From Geothrix oryzisoli (GTDB taxonomy: Bacteria > Acidobacteriota > Holophagae > Holophagales > Holophagaceae): 64,000 nucleotides of DNA. Shown here piece after piece: positions 3,875-14,351 of this stretch. The stretch is from assembly GCF_022808865.1 (NCBI RefSeq), contig NZ_JAKZLB010000005.1, forward strand, positions 124,001-188,000, in the 5' to 3' direction. Position 1 is the first letter of the stretch, and each line of letters begins with the position of its first letter. A model generated the notes under the pieces. That model saw only the letters and a program-made list of their open reading frames with translations. It was not told the origin of the DNA and did not search any database. Both the position numbers and the translations under genes were made by a program.

Positions 3875-6682
3875 TCAGGCCTTCAGCTTGGCCGCGAAGG
3901 CCTCCAGGGCCCGGTAGTAGGGATCGATGCTGGGGATGAAGTGGCGCTCGCCGGCGGCATGGGGGCCGATGCCGGTCTGGCCCCAGACCACGCCCTGGCC
4001 CTTGGGGGCGAAGCGGGCCGAGGTGCCGGCGCCCTTGCGGCCCAGGCGCACCTCGCCACCGGCGGCTTCGATGCCCGCCAGCAGGGCCTTGAGGTAGGGG
4101 TTCTCCGGATCGCAGGCCACGCCGGGTTCCCAGGCGGCGGGCACGAACTCCAGCTCCCGCTCCGCGGCCATGGCTTCGATGGCGGCGCGCAGGCTCGAGA
4201 TGTCGTCCTGGGGGATGGGGCGGAGCTCCACGCCCAGGGCGCCGCGGTCCGGCGTGATGTTGTAGACCCCCGGGGTGCCCACCTGGATGTAGGCGAAGCG
4301 GGCCAGGGACTGCCAGCCATCCGAGGCCTTGAGGGTGAGGCGCTTTGCGAACATCTCGCGCAGGGCCTCGCGGGCGCCCAACAGGCGCTCGGTGAGATCG
4401 CTGCCGCCCGCCAGGCCGCTGTGGCCGCGGGTGCCCCTGGCCACCAGCTCGAAGCGAAGGACGCCGCGGTTCTGGGTGCAGACCTCGCCCCAGAGCTCGG
4501 TGCCCTTCTCGCCGGTGCGCTCGCCGGCCACGAAGAAGGAGGGCTCGTAGTCCCACTCCTCCTTGAGCTGTTTGAGCACGTGGGGCGTGCCCATCGGCTC
4601 AAGCTCGCCATTCTCTTCATTGCCGAGCATGAGGAGGCTCACGGGCGGGTAGGGCGCCCCCTTCTTGAGGGTGTCCTTCATCCACACCAGGTAGGTGGAG
4701 AGCACGGTCTTCATGTCCGCCGCGCCGCGGCCCCAGAGGTAGTCGCCCTCGATCTTCGGCTCGAACTGGCTGTCGTCGGGCTCGGGCTCGACCACGTCGA
4801 AGTGGCCGCAGAGCATGACCGGGGCCTTCTCGCCGCCGGGGAAATGGGCCAGCACGGCGGGGAAGGTGGCCTGGTCGAAGTAGCGCACGGGCACGCCGTG
4901 GTTGCGCAGGTAGTCGTAGATGAAGGTGGCCGCCCGGTGGATCTCGGGCATGCGCTCCTCCGGGCAGGCGGTGACGCTGGGAATGCGGATGAGCCGCTGG
5001 GAGACGGACAGCACTTCCGTGGTCTTGTCCACGAAGCCGGATTCCACCAGCTTCTCGGGCCGGGGGCGGAACCGCACGGGGGCGCGGGGGTCCAGGTGCA
5101 CTTCGTCCCGGGCGTGCTCCACGAAGTCCTGCAGCTTGTCCTGCTCGGTGCCGAGGTCCGCCAGGTGGGCGGTGACGGTCTCCACTTCCTCACGGACCTG
5201 GGCGGTCCGGGCCTCGGCCAGCTCGACGAGCAGGGCGGGCGGCACGATGTCCGAAGTCCCGAGCTTGGCCCTCAGCCGCTGGCGCATCTTCTCGGCGGTG
5301 CTTGGGGCGCCATCCACCATCTCGCGGAGCGGCTGGAGGTCCTCCCAGAAGTCGAGGGCCTCCGCCAGGGGGCGCAGCTGGTTGAGCGTCCAGGCGAGGA
5401 AGGCGCGCATGGCCACCGGCTTGGCGGTGAGGGGGTCCTCGATGACGGCGTTGAGGCCCTCGCGGGCCGCCAGGTCTTCGTTGCGGCGGGCCCGGGTGAT
5501 GTCCTCGGCGTCGTAGCGGAAGCCGCGGGCGAAGTCGGGATCGGCATAGAAGCGGAGCAGCAGCAGGTGCTTGAGGGTGAGGTTGGCCACGTCCAGGGCC
5601 AGTTCGTGGCCGGGATCATCCGTGCGCACTTCCACGCGGGCCATGGGCAGGTCGATCCGGGCGAAGAGGTTCTGGCGCTCGATCTGCGCGGCCATGTCCT
5701 CCACGTTCCGGGTTTCGCCGGCGGCGAAGAGGCCGCGGGCGTAGATGTCGTGCAGCTGGTCGCTGGTGACCTGGATGAGGCGCTCCACGGGCTCGACCTG
5801 GGAGCGGGCGCGCACGGGGATCCAGTTGTTGTTGCCGAAGCGAACGCCGCGGCGGACCAGGTCGTAGGACAGGCGCAGGTAGTCGGAGTGGCTGCGGTTC
5901 AGGTCCGGCACGTCCAGGGCGGGCGGGTTCGGGAAGGTGAGGTTGCGCACCGATTCGTAGGGCGTCAGCCGGACGACGGGCTTGCCGCCCTCCTCCGAAG
6001 CCTGCAGGGGCGTGCTGGCGCTGGTGGCGATGAAGAGGGCGGCGAAGGCCCGCATGAGCCGCGTGCTGGTGATGTAGACCTTGTTCTTGTAGGCGTCCAG
6101 GTGGTTGTCCCCGCGCTGGGCGTCGGGCAGGTGCATGAAGTCCCAGGCCAGCATGGGCTCGGGCAGGCTCAGGTTGGAGTGGGTGCCGGCGGTGGCCAGC
6201 TCGGTCCCGTAGATCTCGACGCAGCGCTGCAGGTAGCGCCGCTTGGCCAGGTGCCAGGACATGGGTACGCAGTCGGGCCCGATCTCAGGCAGCACGAGCA
6301 GATTGCCGTGCCAGTAGTACAGGGGTTCCCCGAAGGCCCGGCCGGCCTTGTAGAGGGCGTTGATGAGGGCCGCCTCCAGCAGGCGGCCTTCGTACACCGC
6401 GCCCTTGGGCGTGTGGTAGGGCCGCGTGACCCATTCGATCATCCAGTGGAAGACCTCCAGCTGGTGGTATTCCTCGGTCCAGGGCGCCAGCACCTTCGAG
6501 CGCAGGTGATCGACGAAGGACATGCGGTCGGGCCCGGTACCCACGGTGAGCAGGGGGCGGAACTGGGGGTCCACCAGGTTCCACTCCAGCTCCAGCCCGC
6601 AGAGCCCGCCCTGGGGCCGCGTTTCCTGGGCCGTCTGGCGGGCCAGCTGGAATTTCTCCACGAAGGCGTTCAGGTCGAACAC
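3875..6682 (-). CDS. Fusion of glutamate-cysteine-ligase-like domain with M20 metallopeptidase
   Basis: This is a 935-residue two-enzyme protein. Residues ~1-500 resemble the GCS2/carboxylate-amine ligase superfamily: GLELEWNLVD near the N-terminus, TAGTHSNLSL, and RVEVRTDD correspond to its metal/ATP-binding positions. Residues ~545-935 form an M20 (ArgE/DapE-like) dizinc hydrolase with every expected ligand: GHFDVV (His627), WGRGAADMK, GNEENGE, AGERTG, RGTRGHSG and the last GPHAAGERH. One half should make an amide bond and the other should cleave one. The true substrates are unknown. Translation starts at GTG 6682 with GGAG 7 bases upstream. It lies 41 bases after the aminotransferase gene and is probably co-transcribed with it. 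Confidence 0.75.
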   Translation of the reverse strand: MFDLNAFVEKFQLARQTAQETRPQGGLCGLELEWNLVDPQFRPLLTVGTGPDRMSFVDHLRSKVLAPWTEEYHQLEVFHWMIEWVTRPYHTPKGAVYEGRLLEAALINALYKAGRAFGEPLYYWHGNLLVLPEIGPDCVPMSWHLAKRRYLQRCVEIYGTELATAGTHSNLSLPEPMLAWDFMHLPDAQRGDNHLDAYKNKVYITSTRLMRAFAALFIATSASTPLQASEEGGKPVVRLTPYESVRNLTFPNPPALDVPDLNRSHSDYLRLSYDLVRRGVRFGNNNWIPVRARSQVEPVERLIQVTSDQLHDIYARGLFAAGETRNVEDMAAQIERQNLFARIDLPMARVEVRTDDPGHELALDVANLTLKHLLLLRFYADPDFARGFRYDAEDITRARRNEDLAAREGLNAVIEDPLTAKPVAMRAFLAWTLNQLRPLAEALDFWEDLQPLREMVDGAPSTAEKMRQRLRAKLGTSDIVPPALLVELAEARTAQVREEVETVTAHLADLGTEQDKLQDFVEHARDEVHLDPRAPVRFRPRPEKLVESGFVDKTTEVLSVSQRLIRIPSVTACPEERMPEIHRAATFIYDYLRNHGVPVRYFDQATFPAVLAHFPGGEKAPVMLCGHFDVVEPEPDDSQFEPKIEGDYLWGRGAADMKTVLSTYLVWMKDTLKKGAPYPPVSLLMLGNEENGELEPMGTPHVLKQLKEEWDYEPSFFVAGERTGEKGTELWGEVCTQNRGVLRFELVARGTRGHSGLAGGSDLTERLLGAREALREMFAKRLTLKASDGWQSLARFAYIQVGTPGVYNITPDRGALGVELRPIPQDDISSLRAAIEAMAAERELEFVPAAWEPGVACDPENPYLKALLAGIEAAGGEVRLGRKGAGTSARFAPKGQGVVWGQTGIGPHAAGERHFIPSIDPYYRALEAFAAKLKA

Positions 6683-8117: not shown

Positions 8118-8161
8118 GCTCAAAGTTATAGAGTCTTATGTGTCAATAATTGATGCTTATA
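8118..8161 (-). promoter_or_regulatory. AT-rich promoter/operator region for the aminotransferase operon
   Basis: This is a rare AT-rich stretch in very GC-rich DNA. On the minus strand it contains TTGACA (8146-8141), TATAAC (8130-8125) and TATAAG (8161-8156), and a dyad TCAAT-A-ATTGA at 8143-8153. The spacing between TTGACA and TATAAC is only 10 bases, so the exact promoter is unclear. The dyad may be a regulator site. Confidence 0.4.
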
Positions 8162-10337
8162 ATGTCGACCTCAGATCGAGGTGCTGGAAGGGGCGGGCCG
8201 CGGGCCCGGTGTAATTCTCCACCCGGTGGCCATGGCCCCGGAGGAGGTAGCGGTAGCTCAGCAGACCTTCGAGTCCCACGGGTCCGCGGGCGTGGATCCG
8301 CCCGGTGCTGATGCCCACCTCGGCGCCGAATCCGTACCGGAACCCATCGGCGAACCGCGTGGAGGCATTGTGGTAGACGCCCGCGGCATCCACCTCCGCA
8401 AGGAACCGGGCGGCGGCGGCGGGATCTTCCGTGACGATGGCCTCGGTGTGGCCGCTGCCATGGGTGCGGATGTGGGCCAGCGCCTCCTCCAGATCCGCCA
8501 CCACCTTCAGGGCCAGGATGGGCTCGCCGTACTCCGTGTCCCAGTCCGCCGATGTCGCGGCGCCCAGCCAGGGGACCAGGGCGCGGCAGCGCTCGCACCC
8601 CCGCAGCTCGACCTTGCGGGCCTGGAGATCCTCCGTCAGGGCCGGCAGCAGACGCGGCGCGGCGGCCGCATGCACCAGCACCGTCTCCACCGCGTTGCAG
8701 GCGGCGGGGTACTGGAGCTTCGCGTCCCGGACCAGGGCGACGGCCATGTCGGTGTCTGCGAAGGCGTCCAGGTACATGTGGCACACCCCCTCGGCATGAC
8801 CGAGCACGGGGATCCGCGTGGCGTTCTGGATGTGCTTCACGAGATCTTTGGAACCCCGCGGGATCACCAGGTCCACCCATTCGTTCAGCGCCAGGAGCGC
8901 CTCGACGGAGGCGCGATCCTCCAGGCCCTGGATGGCCGCAACCGGAAGCCCGGTGCGGCGCAGGGCCTCCTGGATGGTGTGCAGCAGGGCCGCGTTGGAA
9001 TGGCGCGCCTCGCGCCCGCCCTTCAGCAGCGCGGCATTCCCGCTCTTCAAGGCGAGGGCGCTGATCTGGATGAGGGCGTCGGGCCGGGACTCGAACACCA
9101 CGCCGAGTACGCCCAGGGGGCAGGAGACGCGCGTGAGTTCCAGCCCGTCATCGAGCTGGCGCCGAAGCTGGACCTGGTTCAGCGGATCCGGCAGGGCTGC
9201 GACCGCCCGCACGCCCTCCGCCATGCTGTGCAGCTTGGCTCGGTCGAGGCGCAGGCGCTGGCAGGCCGAGGCGCCGAGCGTGGCCTTCGCCGCGGCCAGG
9301 TCCGCCTCGTTGGCGGCAAGGATCGCCGCCTCCTCCCCCAGGAGGAGGTCGGCGAGGGTGGTGAGGGCCTGGTCGCGGGTGGCGGTGTCCGTGACGGCCA
9401 GGCGCCGCGAGGCCGCCCGGGCGGCCAGGGCCATGGGCCGGATGGGATTGCCGGCTGGCACGGGGTTTTTCGGTCCGCCGGGGTCGGGCGTGAAGAGGGT
9501 CCCCACCGAAGCGCCTTCCAGGATGCGCTCCAGGATCCGGGGCTCGAGCCCGGAGGCGAGCACCACCGGCACGCCCCGATCCGCGGCCAGACGCGCGGCC
9601 GCCACCTTGCTGGTCATGCCCCCTCGCCCGCGGCCGCTCCGCCCCTCGGTCCGCACGGCGGGAACCTGGCCGAAGGGCACCTCGGCCAGGGGGACCGCAG
9701 CGGGATCCAGCCTGGGGTTGCCGGTGTGCAGGGCCGAGACATCCGAGAGCAGAATCAGGAGGTCCGCCTCCAGGTGCGCCGCCACCAGGGCCGACAGATG
9801 GTCGTTGTCGCTGAAGACCGGGGTCCGGCCGGCGGCGGGACGCTCCAGCTCGAGGGTGGAGACGGTGTCGTTCTCATTGAGGACGGGGATGGCCCCCAGC
9901 GAGAGGAGGGTCTCCAGCGTCCGCCGCAGGTTCGCGTGGCGCGTGGGGTCGGCGAAGTCGTCCTCGGTCAGCAGGACCTGGGCGGCCTTGAACCCCAGGC
10001 GGCCCAGGCCCTCCTGATAGAGGGCCATCAGCTCGCCCTGTCCCGCCGCCGCCGCCGCCTGCTTCTCCGCCAGGGACTTGGGCTCGAGCCCGAGCTGCCG
10101 TGCACCGAGCCCCACCGCGCCCGAGGACACCAACACGGGCTGGCAGCCGCGCGAGGCCATCGCCGCCACCGCCTCCATCAGGGCATAGAGGCGGGCGAGG
10201 GCCGGTCGGCCGCCCGGGTCCACCACCACCTGGGTGCCCAGCTTCACCACGACCCGCCGGGCGGACGGGAGGCCGGCGCGATCCAGGATGCGGGGCTTCG
10301 GCCCCGCCTTGGCGGTCGATGTCGGCTGGCGAACCAT
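8157..10337 (-). CDS. proBA: Bifunctional glutamate 5-kinase / gamma-glutamyl phosphate reductase (ProB-ProA fusion)
   Basis: This 726-residue fusion carries out the first two steps of proline synthesis from glutamate, like eukaryotic P5C synthase. The N-terminal kinase (about 20-280) shows VVVKLGTQVV, SSGAVGLGARQLGL, NENDTVST, FSDNDHLSALVA and RGRGGMTSKVAAA. It lacks the PUA domain found in E. coli ProB. The C-terminal reductase (about 300-720) shows FESRPDALIQI, KGGREARHSN, the catalytic-cysteine region KLQYPAACNAVET and the FGAEVGISTGRIHARGP segment. The ATG at 10337, with GAGGT upstream, was chosen. The ~200-base leader carries a proline-rich ORF and attenuator hairpins. The fusion should channel unstable gamma-glutamyl phosphate between the two sites. 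Confidence 0.93.
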   Translation of the reverse strand: MVRQPTSTAKAGPKPRILDRAGLPSARRVVVKLGTQVVVDPGGRPALARLYALMEAVAAMASRGCQPVLVSSGAVGLGARQLGLEPKSLAEKQAAAAAGQGELMALYQEGLGRLGFKAAQVLLTEDDFADPTRHANLRRTLETLLSLGAIPVLNENDTVSTLELERPAAGRTPVFSDNDHLSALVAAHLEADLLILLSDVSALHTGNPRLDPAAVPLAEVPFGQVPAVRTEGRSGRGRGGMTSKVAAARLAADRGVPVVLASGLEPRILERILEGASVGTLFTPDPGGPKNPVPAGNPIRPMALAARAASRRLAVTDTATRDQALTTLADLLLGEEAAILAANEADLAAAKATLGASACQRLRLDRAKLHSMAEGVRAVAALPDPLNQVQLRRQLDDGLELTRVSCPLGVLGVVFESRPDALIQISALALKSGNAALLKGGREARHSNAALLHTIQEALRRTGLPVAAIQGLEDRASVEALLALNEWVDLVIPRGSKDLVKHIQNATRIPVLGHAEGVCHMYLDAFADTDMAVALVRDAKLQYPAACNAVETVLVHAAAAPRLLPALTEDLQARKVELRGCERCRALVPWLGAATSADWDTEYGEPILALKVVADLEEALAHIRTHGSGHTEAIVTEDPAAAARFLAEVDAAGVYHNASTRFADGFRYGFGAEVGISTGRIHARGPVGLEGLLSYRYLLRGHGHRVENYTGPAARPFQHLDLRSTL

Positions 10338-10350
10338 GGGGACCTCGAAA

Positions 10351-10381
10351 ACAAAAACCCCCGATCGCAGGATCGGGGGTT
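10351..10381 (-). terminator. Attenuator terminator in the proBA leader
   Basis: On the minus strand AACCCCCGATC and GATCGGGGGTT form a perfect 11-bp stem with a CTGC loop, followed by a TTTTTGTTTT tract. It ends about 14 bases before the proBA start, immediately ahead of its Shine-Dalgarno GAGGT. The upstream arm (10371-10381) overlaps the antiterminator arm at 10377-10387, so the two hairpins exclude each other. Confidence 0.85.
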
Positions 10382-10459
10382 GGAGAGCGGGTGACGCTTC
10401 GGTCTGGTCTAGACCCTCTCCAACCCATCCGTCGGGGTGGGATGATTGGGGCGAGGGTT
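10377..10459 (-). promoter_or_regulatory. Proline attenuator: protector and antiterminator hairpins upstream of proBA
   Basis: Four segments can be read on the minus strand. Segment 1 (10459-10441) can pair with segment 2 (10430-10413) through about 16 pairs with small interruptions and a 9-base loop. Segment 2 (10426-10416, GGGTTGGAGAG) pairs perfectly over 11 bp with segment 3 (10387-10377, CTCTCCAACCC). Segment 3 also supplies five bases of the terminator stem. Four Pro codons of the leader ORF lie in segment 1 and the loop after it, and the stop codon lies just past segment 2. A ribosome stalled at the Pro codons would free segment 2 and block termination. Confidence 0.75.
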
Positions 10460-10480
10460 GATGGCCGGGAAGGTGGTCAT
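10409..10480 (-). CDS. Proline-rich leader peptide of proBA
   Basis: A 23-codon ORF, MTTFPAINPRPNHPTPTDGL plus ERV, ends in TAG. Five of the 23 residues are proline, four of them within eight codons (residues 9, 11, 14 and 16). An in-frame ATG at 10510 would extend it to 33 residues and six prolines. Neither start has a strong Shine-Dalgarno site; GGGTG lies just before the ATG at 10480. The peptide itself probably has no function: translation speed at the Pro codons is expected to decide which hairpin forms. The stop codon sits inside the palindrome GGTCTAGACC. The upstream decarboxylase gene stops only 30-60 bases before it. Confidence 0.65.
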   Translation of the reverse strand: MTTFPAINPRPNHPTPTDGLERV

Positions 10481-10539
10481 GACACCCACAGTGTGGTGGG
10501 GAATCGCCATGGCGGGCAAGGGAAATCTGTCCGGCGGCC

Positions 10540-11958
10540 TCAGCCGGCCGCTTCCCGGAGGAGGGCCCAGAGCTGCTCGACATGGGTGTGCTCGGTCGTC
10601 TCGGCGCCGATGCTCACCCGGAGGATCTGCGTCCCCTTCAGCATGGAAGGAGTGAGGTAGGCCTTGCCGCCCTCGTTGATCCGGCGGGCGATGTCCAGGT
10701 TGTGGGCGGCGAGGGCGGCCTCGTCGAGTCCCGGCTTCACATGCCGGAGGCAGACGGTCTGCAGGGGCACGGGCGCCAGCCGTTCCCAATCCGGAGCCGC
10801 GTCCACCTGCTCCTTGAGCCACTGGGTGTTCGCCAGGTCGCGGCGGATGCGGGCCTGGAGGCCCGCCACGCCGACGTCCATGAGGTAGAACCACAGCTTC
10901 AGCGCCCGGAAGCGGCGGCCCAGCTGGATGTGCCAGTCGCGGAAGTTGCTCACCTGGCCGTCCTGGGCCGTGCGCAGATAGCTGGGGTTCGTGCTCATGA
11001 CGCGGATGAGGTGCTGGGGATCGCGCACGTAGTAGGCGCTGAGGTCGAAGCCCACGCCCATCCACTTGTGGGGGTTGAACACCAGGCTGTCGGCCCGCTC
11101 GATGCCCTCCCACATCCAGCGGCACTCGGGCAGCACCATGGCCGTGCCCGCCAGGGCCGCGTCTACGTGGAGCCACATGCCATGCTGCTCCGCGAGGTCC
11201 GCCAGAGCGGGAAGGGAATCCAGGGCCGTGGTGGCGGTGGTGCCCACGGCGCCGACGACGGCGCAGGGGCGCAGGCCGATCTCGACGTCCTTCTCGATGG
11301 CCGACCGCAGCAGGTCCAGGCGGATCGCGTGGCGCTCATCCGTGGGGATGAGGCGCAGGTAGCTGCGGCCGAAACCCGCCAGCAGGGCCGCCTTCTCGAT
11401 GGAGCTGTGGGTCTGGTCCGAGGCGTAGACCACGAGTGGCGCCTCGCCGCTCTGGAGGCCCTCGGTGTTCTGCGCGTACTCCGAGACCTTCTCCCGGGCG
11501 CAGAGCAGGGCCGTGAAGGTGGCCGTGCTGGCGGTGTCGTGGATGACGCCGGTGAAGGCCGTGCTCAGGCCCACCATCTGGCGCAGCCAGTCCATCACCA
11601 CCTCCTCGACCTCCGTGGCCGCGGGGCTGGTCTGCCAGCTCATGCCCTGGGCGCCCAGGCCTGATGCGGCCAGGTCACCGAGGATCGAGCTGTAGCTGGT
11701 GTTGCTGGGGAAGTAGGCGAAGAAGGAGGGATGGTTCCAGTGGGTGATGCCGGGCAGCACGTCCCGCTCCAGGGCCGCCAGGGCCTGGGCGACCCGGCCT
11801 CCGTGCAGGGGCGGATGGTCCGGGAAGGCCGCCCGGACCTCGCCAGGCTTGGCCTGGCTCATCACGGGCAGGCGCTCGAGGTTCTCACGGTAGTCCGCGA
11901 TCCAGTCCACGAGCTGGTAACCGAGGCGGCGGAATTCTTGGGCGTCCATGCCCTCCAT
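10540..11958 (-). CDS. PLP-dependent group II amino acid decarboxylase (aromatic-L-amino-acid decarboxylase type)
   Basis: This ~472-residue cytoplasmic decarboxylase resembles aromatic amino acid and tyrosine decarboxylases. It begins EFRRLGYQLVDWIADY, the usual N-terminus. It has the GITHWNHPSFFAYFPSNTS pocket segment, WLHVDAALAGTAM and the Schiff-base lysine in SLVFNPHKWMGVGFD. The substrate (Trp, Tyr, Phe, DOPA or other) cannot be assigned. The start is uncertain: ATG at 11958, ATG at 11949 with GGAGG only 2 bases away, or GTG at 12006 are all possible. It is the first gene upstream of the proBA leader, so the attenuator may regulate readthrough from this gene into proBA. Confidence 0.83.
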   Translation of the reverse strand: MEGMDAQEFRRLGYQLVDWIADYRENLERLPVMSQAKPGEVRAAFPDHPPLHGGRVAQALAALERDVLPGITHWNHPSFFAYFPSNTSYSSILGDLAASGLGAQGMSWQTSPAATEVEEVVMDWLRQMVGLSTAFTGVIHDTASTATFTALLCAREKVSEYAQNTEGLQSGEAPLVVYASDQTHSSIEKAALLAGFGRSYLRLIPTDERHAIRLDLLRSAIEKDVEIGLRPCAVVGAVGTTATTALDSLPALADLAEQHGMWLHVDAALAGTAMVLPECRWMWEGIERADSLVFNPHKWMGVGFDLSAYYVRDPQHLIRVMSTNPSYLRTAQDGQVSNFRDWHIQLGRRFRALKLWFYLMDVGVAGLQARIRRDLANTQWLKEQVDAAPDWERLAPVPLQTVCLRHVKPGLDEAALAAHNLDIARRINEGGKAYLTPSMLKGTQILRVSIGAETTEHTHVEQLWALLREAAG

Positions 11959-12128
11959 TCTGGCCGGATCCAGCCGGGCCCGCGCAGGAGAGATTGGGGA
12001 TGGCACGGGATCCGCCTTCGCGGCGGGCCGCGGAGCCCGGCGCCGCCACCGGTTGTGGCAAGATCGAATGGAGACTCACGAAACCAATGCAGGTCGCGCC
12101 GGAACCCGAATCCGCGCCCGAGGGGACG

Positions 12129-14351
12129 ATGTTCAAACCAAGCCGCATCCTCCTGAGCCTCGCCTTCTGCCTGGGGGCCCTGGCGGCGTCTGCTGCGCCC
12201 GGTGGGCCGGCTGCGGCGACCTCCCGGCGCGGGAAGGCTGCCGACCTCGCCCGCTGGAGGCGCACCGCGCAGCGCGTCACCATCCTGCGCGACACCTGGG
12301 GCATTCCGCACGTGTTCGGGAAGCGCGATGCCGATGCGGTCTTCGGGCTCCTGTACGCCCAGGCGGAAGATGACTTCAACCGGGTCGAACTGAACTACAT
12401 CAACGCGCTGGGCCGCCTGGCGGAAGTTGAGGGGGAAGCCGAGCTCTACCGCGACCTCCGCATGAAGCTGTACATCACGCCCGCAGGGTTGAAGGCGGCC
12501 TATGCCGCCAGTCCCGCCTGGCTGAAGCAACTGATGGTCGGCTTCGCCGATGGCTTGAACTACTACCTGTACACCCACCCGGAGGTCACCCCGAGGCTGA
12601 TCACCCGCTTCGAGCCCTGGATGGCCCTGGCCTTCAGCGAAGGGAGCATTGGCGGCGACATCGAGTCGATCGACCTGAAGGAGCTGGCGCGGATGTACGG
12701 CCCTCGCAGGCCGGAGGCCGTGGCGGGCGCCTCCGCCGGCCTCGATCCTGAACCGCGCGGGTCCAACGGGTTCGCGATCGCCCCGAAGCTCAGCGCCTCG
12801 GGCCATGCGCTCCTGCTGATCAATCCCCACACCTCCTTCTATTTCCGGCCCGAGGTGCAGGTCGCCAGCGAGGAGGGCCTGAACGCCTATGGCGCCGTGA
12901 CCTGGGGCCAGTTCTTCGTCTACCAGGGATTCAACGAGCGGGCCGGATGGATGCACACGTCCGGCGGGGCCGACGTGATCGATGAATACCTCGAGACGGT
13001 CACCGGGAAGGAAGGGCGGTTCTCCTATCGGTATGAACATGGGGAACGGCCGGTGAAGGCCGTGCTGATCGTCCTGCCCTACAGGACCGCTGCGGGAATG
13101 AGCCGGAAGACCGTGACGGCCTACTTCACCCACCACGGCCCGGTCGTGCGGGAGGCGAACGGCAAGTGGGTCGCCGTGAAGCTGATGCAGGAACCCATGA
13201 AGGCGCTGATGCAGTCGTACCTGCGCACCAAGGCCCGGAGCTATGCCGCGTTCCGCAAGACAATGGAACTGCAGACCAACTCCTCGAACAACACCGTCTA
13301 CGCCGACGCTGACGGCAACATCGCCTACTTCCACGGGAACTTCGTGCCGATCCGCGATCCGAAGTTCGACTGGACCCGGCCGGTGGACGGCAGCCTCGCC
13401 GCCACGGAATGGAAGGGACTGCATCCGATCGGAGAGACCATCACCCTGCTGAATCCTGCCAGCGGATGGATCCAGAACACCAACAACTGGCCCTTCTCCG
13501 CTGCGGGTTCCAGCAGCCCCAGGCAGGCGGACTATCCCGCCTACATGTGGGCGAACCCGGAAAATGCGCGGGGCCTGCACGCCGTGAAGGTGCTGCAGCA
13601 CCAGAAGGTGATGACCCTGGACAGCCTGATCGCGGCCGCCTACGACACCTACCTGACCGGCTTCGATCCCCTGCTCCCGGCGCTGTTGGAGGCCTATGAC
13701 GGATTGCCCCCGGCGGACCCGCTCAGGGCGGCGCTGGCGCCCCAGGTCGAGGCCCTGCGCACCTGGGACCGGCGCTATGCGCTGACCTCCGTCCCGACCT
13801 CACTGGCGATCTACTGGGGCCAGGACCTGATCTCCCGTTCGTCCGCCGCCGCGCGCCGGAAGGGCGTTCCGGTGCTGGACTACATCGCAGAGAACCTCGC
13901 CCCACAGGAGAGGCTGGAAGCGCTCGCTCGGGCGAGCGCCAAGCTGGAGGCCGATTTCGGCACCTGGAAGACCCCGTGGGGAGAGATCAACCGGTTCCAG
14001 CGGCTCAGCAGCGACGTGGCCCAGGCCTACGACGACGCCAAGTTCAGCTGGCCGGTCCCGTTCCCCTCGGCCACCTGGGGTTCCCTGGCCGCCTTCGGCG
14101 CCTCCTCGGTCCAACCCACCCGCCGCATCTACGGGGACCGGGGCAACAGCTTCGTCGCCGTCGTCGAATTCGGCCCGCGCCTCCGCGCCAAGAGCCTCCT
14201 CGCCGGTGGCGAGAGCGGGCATCCCGACTCGCCCCATTTCACGGACCAGGCCGAACGGTACAGCCAGGGCCGGTTCAAGGATGTCCTGTTCTACCGCTCT
14301 GACATCGAAAAGCACTTGGAGCGCCGATACCATCCCGGCGAGGGGCGCTAG
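12129..14351 (+). CDS. Secreted penicillin-acylase family (S45) amidohydrolase
   Basis: This 740-residue Ntn-hydrolase precursor has a clear signal peptide (hydrophobic residues 6-22, cleavage near ASA-AP), so it acts in the periplasm. S45 enzymes self-cleave to expose a serine nucleophile. Here this should be Ser212 in RGSNGFAIAP, at the start of the beta chain. The helper-Asn region SNNTVYADADGNIAY is also present, as is the alpha-chain DTWGIPHVFG with GLLYAQAEDDFNR. Likely substrates are N-acyl compounds such as acyl-homoserine lactones or N-acyl amino acids, but this cannot be decided. The ATG at 12129 was chosen because GAGGGG precedes it and the signal peptide begins there. It is transcribed away from the decarboxylase gene. 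Confidence 0.87.
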   Translation: MFKPSRILLSLAFCLGALAASAAPGGPAAATSRRGKAADLARWRRTAQRVTILRDTWGIPHVFGKRDADAVFGLLYAQAEDDFNRVELNYINALGRLAEVEGEAELYRDLRMKLYITPAGLKAAYAASPAWLKQLMVGFADGLNYYLYTHPEVTPRLITRFEPWMALAFSEGSIGGDIESIDLKELARMYGPRRPEAVAGASAGLDPEPRGSNGFAIAPKLSASGHALLLINPHTSFYFRPEVQVASEEGLNAYGAVTWGQFFVYQGFNERAGWMHTSGGADVIDEYLETVTGKEGRFSYRYEHGERPVKAVLIVLPYRTAAGMSRKTVTAYFTHHGPVVREANGKWVAVKLMQEPMKALMQSYLRTKARSYAAFRKTMELQTNSSNNTVYADADGNIAYFHGNFVPIRDPKFDWTRPVDGSLAATEWKGLHPIGETITLLNPASGWIQNTNNWPFSAAGSSSPRQADYPAYMWANPENARGLHAVKVLQHQKVMTLDSLIAAAYDTYLTGFDPLLPALLEAYDGLPPADPLRAALAPQVEALRTWDRRYALTSVPTSLAIYWGQDLISRSSAAARRKGVPVLDYIAENLAPQERLEALARASAKLEADFGTWKTPWGEINRFQRLSSDVAQAYDDAKFSWPVPFPSATWGSLAAFGASSVQPTRRIYGDRGNSFVAVVEFGPRLRAKSLLAGGESGHPDSPHFTDQAERYSQGRFKDVLFYRSDIEKHLERRYHPGEGR

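Follow-up and report, generated by a model that had tools for sequence, protein, structure and literature searches.

Predicted proline-sensing leader-peptide attenuators at proBA and proC, and codon-matched leaders at other amino-acid genes, in Geothrix oryzisoli and related Holophagaceae

Introduction

Classical leader-peptide attenuators (trp, his, leu, thr, phe and ilv; His_leader, Trp_leader and others in Rfam) combine a short ORF carrying cognate codons with an overlapping antiterminator and terminator and a stop codon adjoining segment 2, and they control the cognate biosynthetic gene. The leader of the fused proBA gene of Geothrix oryzisoli described here resembles them in all of these respects, with control of proBA predicted. 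However, it differs in its proline codons, in the proBA and proC targets, in its occurrence in Acidobacteriota, in having no match to an Rfam family and in an ORF that is predicted to be nearly leaderless. In Firmicutes, the charging of tRNA-Pro controls proline synthesis genes through T-boxes by termination and antitermination. The T-box resembles the proposed leader in sensing tRNA-Pro but binds the tRNA directly.

Leader-peptide systems had been known from Proteobacteria and Actinobacteria only, before a histidine case was reported in Firmicutes, and almost none of the predicted attenuators of Acidobacteria had associated functions (Naville and Gautheret 2010; PMC2965389). Proline synthesis genes were also the subject of a study of transcriptional regulation in Gammaproteobacteria by comparative genomics, from an attenuation group, as far as its title tells (Lopatovskaya et al. 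2010, cited in PMC3985182 and PMC4717669); judged by the title alone, that system differs from the present one in bacterial class. In Salmonella, Pro codons in a short leader ORF are reported to modulate downstream expression of mgtCBR and mgtA (PMC3641672, PMC6460261), whose products serve Mg2+ transport and virulence, whereas the targets here are proline synthesis genes. The trpL RNA of Sinorhizobium meliloti begins at its ATG (PMC7298713). Like the proBA leader, as predicted here, it has little or no RNA ahead of its start codon and precedes an amino-acid gene. It differs in that it concerns tryptophan, belongs to Alphaproteobacteria and has known functions in trans.

The original prediction for this locus was a proline attenuator, and no leader-peptide attenuator of proBA was known to have been described in this group. 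None for proBA or proC turned up in full-text literature searches, and neither did a published asparagine leader on asnB. The 2010 title indicates that the transcriptional regulation of proline synthesis had already been studied in Gammaproteobacteria, a different group.

Results

The leader was analysed in the window, i.e., the whole stretch of 64,000 nucleotides of G. oryzisoli DNA that was examined (contig NZ_JAKZLB010000005.1, positions 124,001 to 188,000), and its features are collected in Table 1. The leader ORF contains five Pro codons (residues 5, 9, 11, 14 and 16) and precedes a fused gene that matched the NCBIfam models of proB (248 bits) and proA (488 bits), each over its cut-off. 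Upstream in-frame starts (ATG at 10510 and others) were left out of the model, as 10480 is the aligned start; among the 26 leaders compared below, the aligned codon is ATG in 25 and GTG in one. Segment 2 is the exact reverse complement of segment 3 over 11 bp. The terminator stem consists of 11 pairs, seven of which are G-C, and its tail TTTTTGTTTT stops at 10348; this was the best-scoring terminator-like site of the region, in which two overlapping sites were found against 0.3 expected. Segment 2 and the leader stop codon are 4 nt apart, and a further 27 nt separate the stop codon from the terminator. The Pro-rich ORF, the perfect 11-bp antiterminator overlapping a perfect 11-bp terminator with a T tract, and the stop codon adjoining segment 2 had all been proposed earlier, and the first two agreed with the sequence base for base. 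When the leader was compared with Rfam, nothing reached the gathering score and no amino-acid leader family was found. A T-box riboswitch was rejected, there being no match at the gathering score and no T-box among the weak matches.

Table 1. Positions of the proBA leader elements and neighbouring genes in the window, and of codon-matched leaders elsewhere in the same genome (L and G coordinates; for the pheA, DAHP synthase, trpE, ilvA, ilvB and thrA leaders they mark the ORF or its recognisable 3' part)
Feature	Position	Strand	Description
-35-like box	10514..10519	minus	TTGCCC; TTG at the same place, at -35 distance, in 25/26 leaders
-10-like box	10490..10495	minus	CACACT; CA.A.T invariant, 26/26; predicted transcription start ~10483
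Leader ORF	10480-10409	minus	23 codons, MTTFPAINPRPNHPTPTDGLERV; ATG at 10480, stop TAG 10411-10409
Candidate control codons	10439..10456	minus	Pro9 10456-10454, Pro11 10450-10448, Pro14 10441-10439
Pro16 codon	10435-10433	minus	directly past the control codons
Candidate 1:2 protector stem	10420..10449	minus	CCAATCATCC (10449-10440) with GGATGGGTTGG (10430-10420), one bulged G
Antiterminator segment 2	10416..10426	minus	GGGTTGGAGAG
Antiterminator segment 3	10377..10387	minus	CTCTCCAACCC; overlaps the terminator 5' arm
Intrinsic terminator	10348..10381	minus	AACCCCCGATC-CTGC-GATCGGGGGTT; stem 10381-10371 with 10366-10356; T tract to 10348
SD-like GAGG of proBA	10346-10343	minus
Fused proBA	8157..10337	minus	726 aa; glutamate 5-kinase and glutamate-5-semialdehyde dehydrogenase; regulated gene in the proposed model
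PLP-dependent decarboxylase	10540-12006	minus	upstream of the leader, 3' end at 10540; best model L-2,4-diaminobutyrate decarboxylase, score far under cut-off
935-aa ORF	3875-6682	minus	weak glutamate-cysteine ligase similarity N-terminally, M20 peptidase domain C-terminally; unusual pairing
Penicillin amidase family protein	11994-14351	plus	weak likeness to acylase PvdQ
asnB leader	L145:534-615 (G000:C1:514033)		MTFPCPRFNRNFNNRLPRANRAWAGEGLT; Asn codons, terminator
pheA leader	L242:1938-2003		MTLSCSFFFSFRTPGARVGGV; Phe codons, terminator
DAHP synthase leader	L273:14160-14234		MTPRFHRYYWFPRADRAWHGEGPA; Tyr, Trp, Phe codons, terminator
trpE leader	L184:15516-15569		...HGAWWWRTGLDGSLCEA; Trp codons, terminator
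ilvA leader	L191:13813-13881		MSHAGFALIPAAIAIIRSREGA; Ile codons, terminator
ilvB leader	L171:7959-8012		...LVAIPAVLMISGEVGAS; branched-chain codons, terminator
thrA leader	L238:9574-9624		MMTTNGTITHPVSRGA; Thr codons, terminator

The arrangement very probably is a ribosome-mediated transcription attenuator through which charged tRNA-Pro is sensed and proBA controlled. The RNA would begin some 3 nt ahead of the leader ATG, which would give the ribosome a nearly leaderless mRNA to load on. Under proline shortage, the ribosome would stall at Pro9, Pro11 or Pro14 and mask segment 1; segment 2 would thereby be left free to pair with segment 3, the terminator would be blocked and RNA polymerase could continue into proBA. 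When proline is ample, the ribosome would reach the stop codon and cover segment 2, the terminator would form and transcription would stop near 10348. Translation of the leader, stalling and the response to proline are predictions of this model, and the promoter and the start site are predicted from conserved promoter-like boxes.

The window leader by itself is suggestive of such a mechanism but short of proof, and its Pro count alone is weak evidence, near chance. Because Pro makes up 12% of random-frame residues in this GC-rich genome, four Pro within eight codons is only about a 1% event (p ~0.01). The leader was absent from the biased short ORFs flagged by systematic scans of 2.45 Mb of the genome, and the fold of the whole leader was mildly unusual relative to shuffled sequences (z = -1.9).

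Relatives were drawn from 26 proB or proBA loci of one collection and from a search across 77 family genomes. Upstream of proB or proBA, 27 distinct leaders had a similarly placed Pro-rich ORF, and 26 of them also had a strong terminator, usually 25-31 nt past the stop codon; these 26 terminator-bearing Holophagaceae leaders are the basis of the conservation counts that follow. All of them retain the ORF (22-23 codons) with its motif and spacing, and also the switchable stems. The peptides vary widely between species (e.g., MTVSVSSDPRPSHPTPMVGSKGV, MIPVATLNPIPSQPIPGAPVGGI and MLFTKITNPRPNHATPVVRWTGI) yet share N-P-x-P, with N replaced by D, Y or I in six leaders. The second Pro of the motif, equivalent to Pro11, is invariant (26/26), and the first, equivalent to Pro9, is found in 25. 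Synonymous changes (CCG/CCT and CCC/CCT) occur at the conserved Pro codons. The second one is CCT in 20 of the leaders, a codon that is rare in five window genes (11/215 Pro codons), and the span from it through the stop codon measures 42 nt in 22 leaders and 39 nt in the other four. The x position is occupied by R in 17 leaders, P in five, I in three and N in one; arginine sensing through a PRP motif was ruled out, since Arg is replaced in nine.

The Pro codons, terminator and antiterminator that the original prediction expected to find in related Holophagaceae are thus retained, and proB without a Pro-rich ORF was encountered only in a few outgroup genomes. As judged from these alignments, it is the conservation among Holophagaceae, and not the Pro cluster, that goes beyond chance. 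Elsewhere in Acidobacteriota no convincing proline leader was found before proB among the 30 best proB loci, 29 of which lie outside the family, and a covariance model of the proBA leader gave outside the family weak matches only, mostly terminator-like. The fusion of proB and proA occurs in five of the 26 loci, probably in a sixth, and is independent of the leader. In one genome (G069), the Pro-rich leader upstream of proB (L057, MLNLRPIPRPPFRPTGA) lacks an intrinsic terminator; a hairpin across the proB start region is possible there, and control may be exerted at translation instead.

The promoter-like boxes were conserved in their distance from the leader. In every one of the 26 leaders, exactly 9 nt separate the end of the -10-like box (CACACT, or in a few cases CACAAT or CAGACT) from the start codon, and a purine occupies the predicted +1 position throughout. 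At proC, the corresponding box TATAGT, TATGCT or TATATT (TATnnT) ends 6-7 nt before the ATG. These conserved boxes lead to predicted 5' untranslated stretches of 0-3 nt, i.e., leaderless or nearly so, and from them the mRNA of the proBA leader looks nearly leaderless, with a start about 3 nt before the ATG. The -10-like box of proBA is a weak match to the consensus, and site prediction called no promoter in the region. The layout is not universal among the leaders in the genome, as the box of asnB sits farther upstream. Since S. meliloti trpL shares a nearly leaderless leader mRNA (PMC7298713), it could be argued that the peptide or a released short RNA acts in trans, besides or instead of attenuation, as do peTrpL and rnTrpL in Sinorhizobium. 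However, the peptide beyond the Pro motif differs widely between species, whereas the position in cis and the switchable stems are conserved, and we regard action in trans as very unlikely.

The pairings were evaluated by three kinds of tests. In the swap test, the pairing energy of each leader's own segments was compared with that of segments permuted between leaders (5000 permutations). Permuted segments were as good as the native ones in 0 of 5000 cases for 3:4, in 8 for 2:3 and in 1533 for 1:2. With 11 representatives of less than 85% identity, the corresponding numbers were 0, 11 and 3128, and with six representatives 37, 13 and 1951. In the state test, a stalled ribosome was modelled by making RNA visible only from 15 nt downstream of where the second conserved Pro codon begins. 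The mean expected number of 2:3 pairs, counted between segment 2 and the 5' side of the terminator, was 14.7 with the ribosome at that codon, 0 with the ribosome at the stop codon and 7.2 without a ribosome. Moreover, native leaders had 14.3 expected 2:3 pairs against 6.4 in dinucleotide shuffles. The 2:3 and 3:4 pairings, whose native segments paired better than swapped ones, are thus supported by prediction and comparison. RNAalifold on the whole leader alignment recovered the terminator only, and therefore the case for 2:3 rests on the swap and shuffle tests.

The protector hairpin proposed earlier was a different matter. It can fold, with about -22 kcal/mol, but no covariation signal was detected for the 1:2 stem, and its native pairing was no better than swapped pairing, with the representatives too. 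In addition, in the RNA preceding completion of the terminator, the window leader without a ribosome favours 2:3 over 1:2, which would weaken termination in the absence of translation. A 1:2 protector is thus possible according to the folding calculations, without comparative support, and would be the weakest part of the attenuator model. The computations also indicated that the completed terminator usually outcompetes the antiterminator at equilibrium, and hence the model depends on the order of folding during transcription.

The proline leader is not confined to proB. In proC-proB-proA operons headed by proC, a Pro leader with a terminator precedes proC (MTSFAFNPAPSPRPSVAGGGPGTD, MRSFAFNPAHSPRPIEAGDGHGAG, MYIVPRISIPHPRPFSRGGWGVSR and MSVAPRITMPNPNPGVTAVR). 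In the window genome, proC is unlinked (G000:C2:656226) and is preceded by a separate Pro leader, MIRIPAIHPRPSTLRAGGSRTTG, and a terminator; the HPRPST leader at proC is also found in many relatives. One leader type would thus track the pathway, whether at proB or at proC.

The hairpin could alternatively be the terminator of the upstream decarboxylase only, with the Pro-rich ORF and the 2:3 match produced by chance in a GC-rich spacer. The decarboxylase gene does end close upstream of the leader, and the GC-rich genome contains many short Pro-rich ORFs. However, while 14 of the 26 loci have a decarboxylase ahead of the leader, none was found in the other 12, in which the leader is nevertheless kept before proB, and this indicates that the leader belongs to proB. 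The leader also occurs before proC where proC heads the operon, and the frame of the ORF, the Pro codons and the spacing are all conserved. An explanation by a decarboxylase terminator and chance is therefore considered highly improbable, and the reading of the region as a proline attenuator is supported by the conservation in 26 leaders and by the recurrence at proC.

About three quarters of the window genome were scanned in pieces, and the covariance model of the proBA leader was also run on the family. The matches to the model and the genome scan together yielded seven further leaders in the window genome, each with codons that suit the gene behind it (Table 1), and the genes behind all seven were confirmed by NCBIfam. 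One match of the model in the same genome, L148, was discarded as a plain terminator without a leader. An Asn-rich leader with a terminator is also present upstream of asnB in relatives (L149, L150, L153, L161 and L162), and in one relative a hisG-like gene, named from its own sequence, lies behind MTTFTFHHHHAHPPPPG. The ilvB, thrA and trpE leaders, each predicted from one genome, are the least certain. That codons and pathway agree at each of these leaders is an independent argument for the proposed proBA mechanism.

These leaders also bear on what is sensed. Slow peptide bond formation at prolines, reflecting EF-P or the general status of translation, might be sensed instead of the charging of tRNA-Pro. 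For example, Pro leaders of Mg2+ genes in Salmonella are reported to be tied to EF-P as well as to proline, and five of the leaders studied here read N-P-P-P. However, most leaders, including that of the window, have no adjacent Pro-Pro, the targets are genes of the proline pathway, and the sister leaders use Asn, Phe, Trp, Ile and Thr codons before their own pathways. Sensing of EF-P or of translation status is thus very unlikely, and sensing of charged tRNA-Pro is the preferred reading.

Discussion

Based on the results of this study, amino-acid biosynthesis in Holophagaceae is probably controlled largely via ribosome-mediated attenuators, of which the window genome would have at least nine. 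Several of the leader mRNAs would be nearly leaderless, and the set includes the proline leaders of proBA and proC and the asparagine leader of asnB, for which no description was found. This would represent a whole set of codon-matched leaders in one family of a phylum with almost none annotated, and would, in Acidobacteriota, add proline to the amino acids whose synthesis genes carry leader peptides that sense them. The mechanism at proBA would belong to a known type. Its leader mRNA would begin in an unusual way, and the genome carries an unexpectedly wide range of related leaders. Moreover, the near-leaderless leaders of cultured, non-pathogenic Geothrix strains could serve as a comparative set for attenuation without a ribosome binding site.

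Four nearly complete genomes of the same genus (G011, G020, G023 and G035) had no match to proBA but kept proC, and in three of them (G011, G020 and G023) a leader match lies beside proC. This suggests another route to pyrroline-5-carboxylate, or reliance on external precursors, in these genomes.
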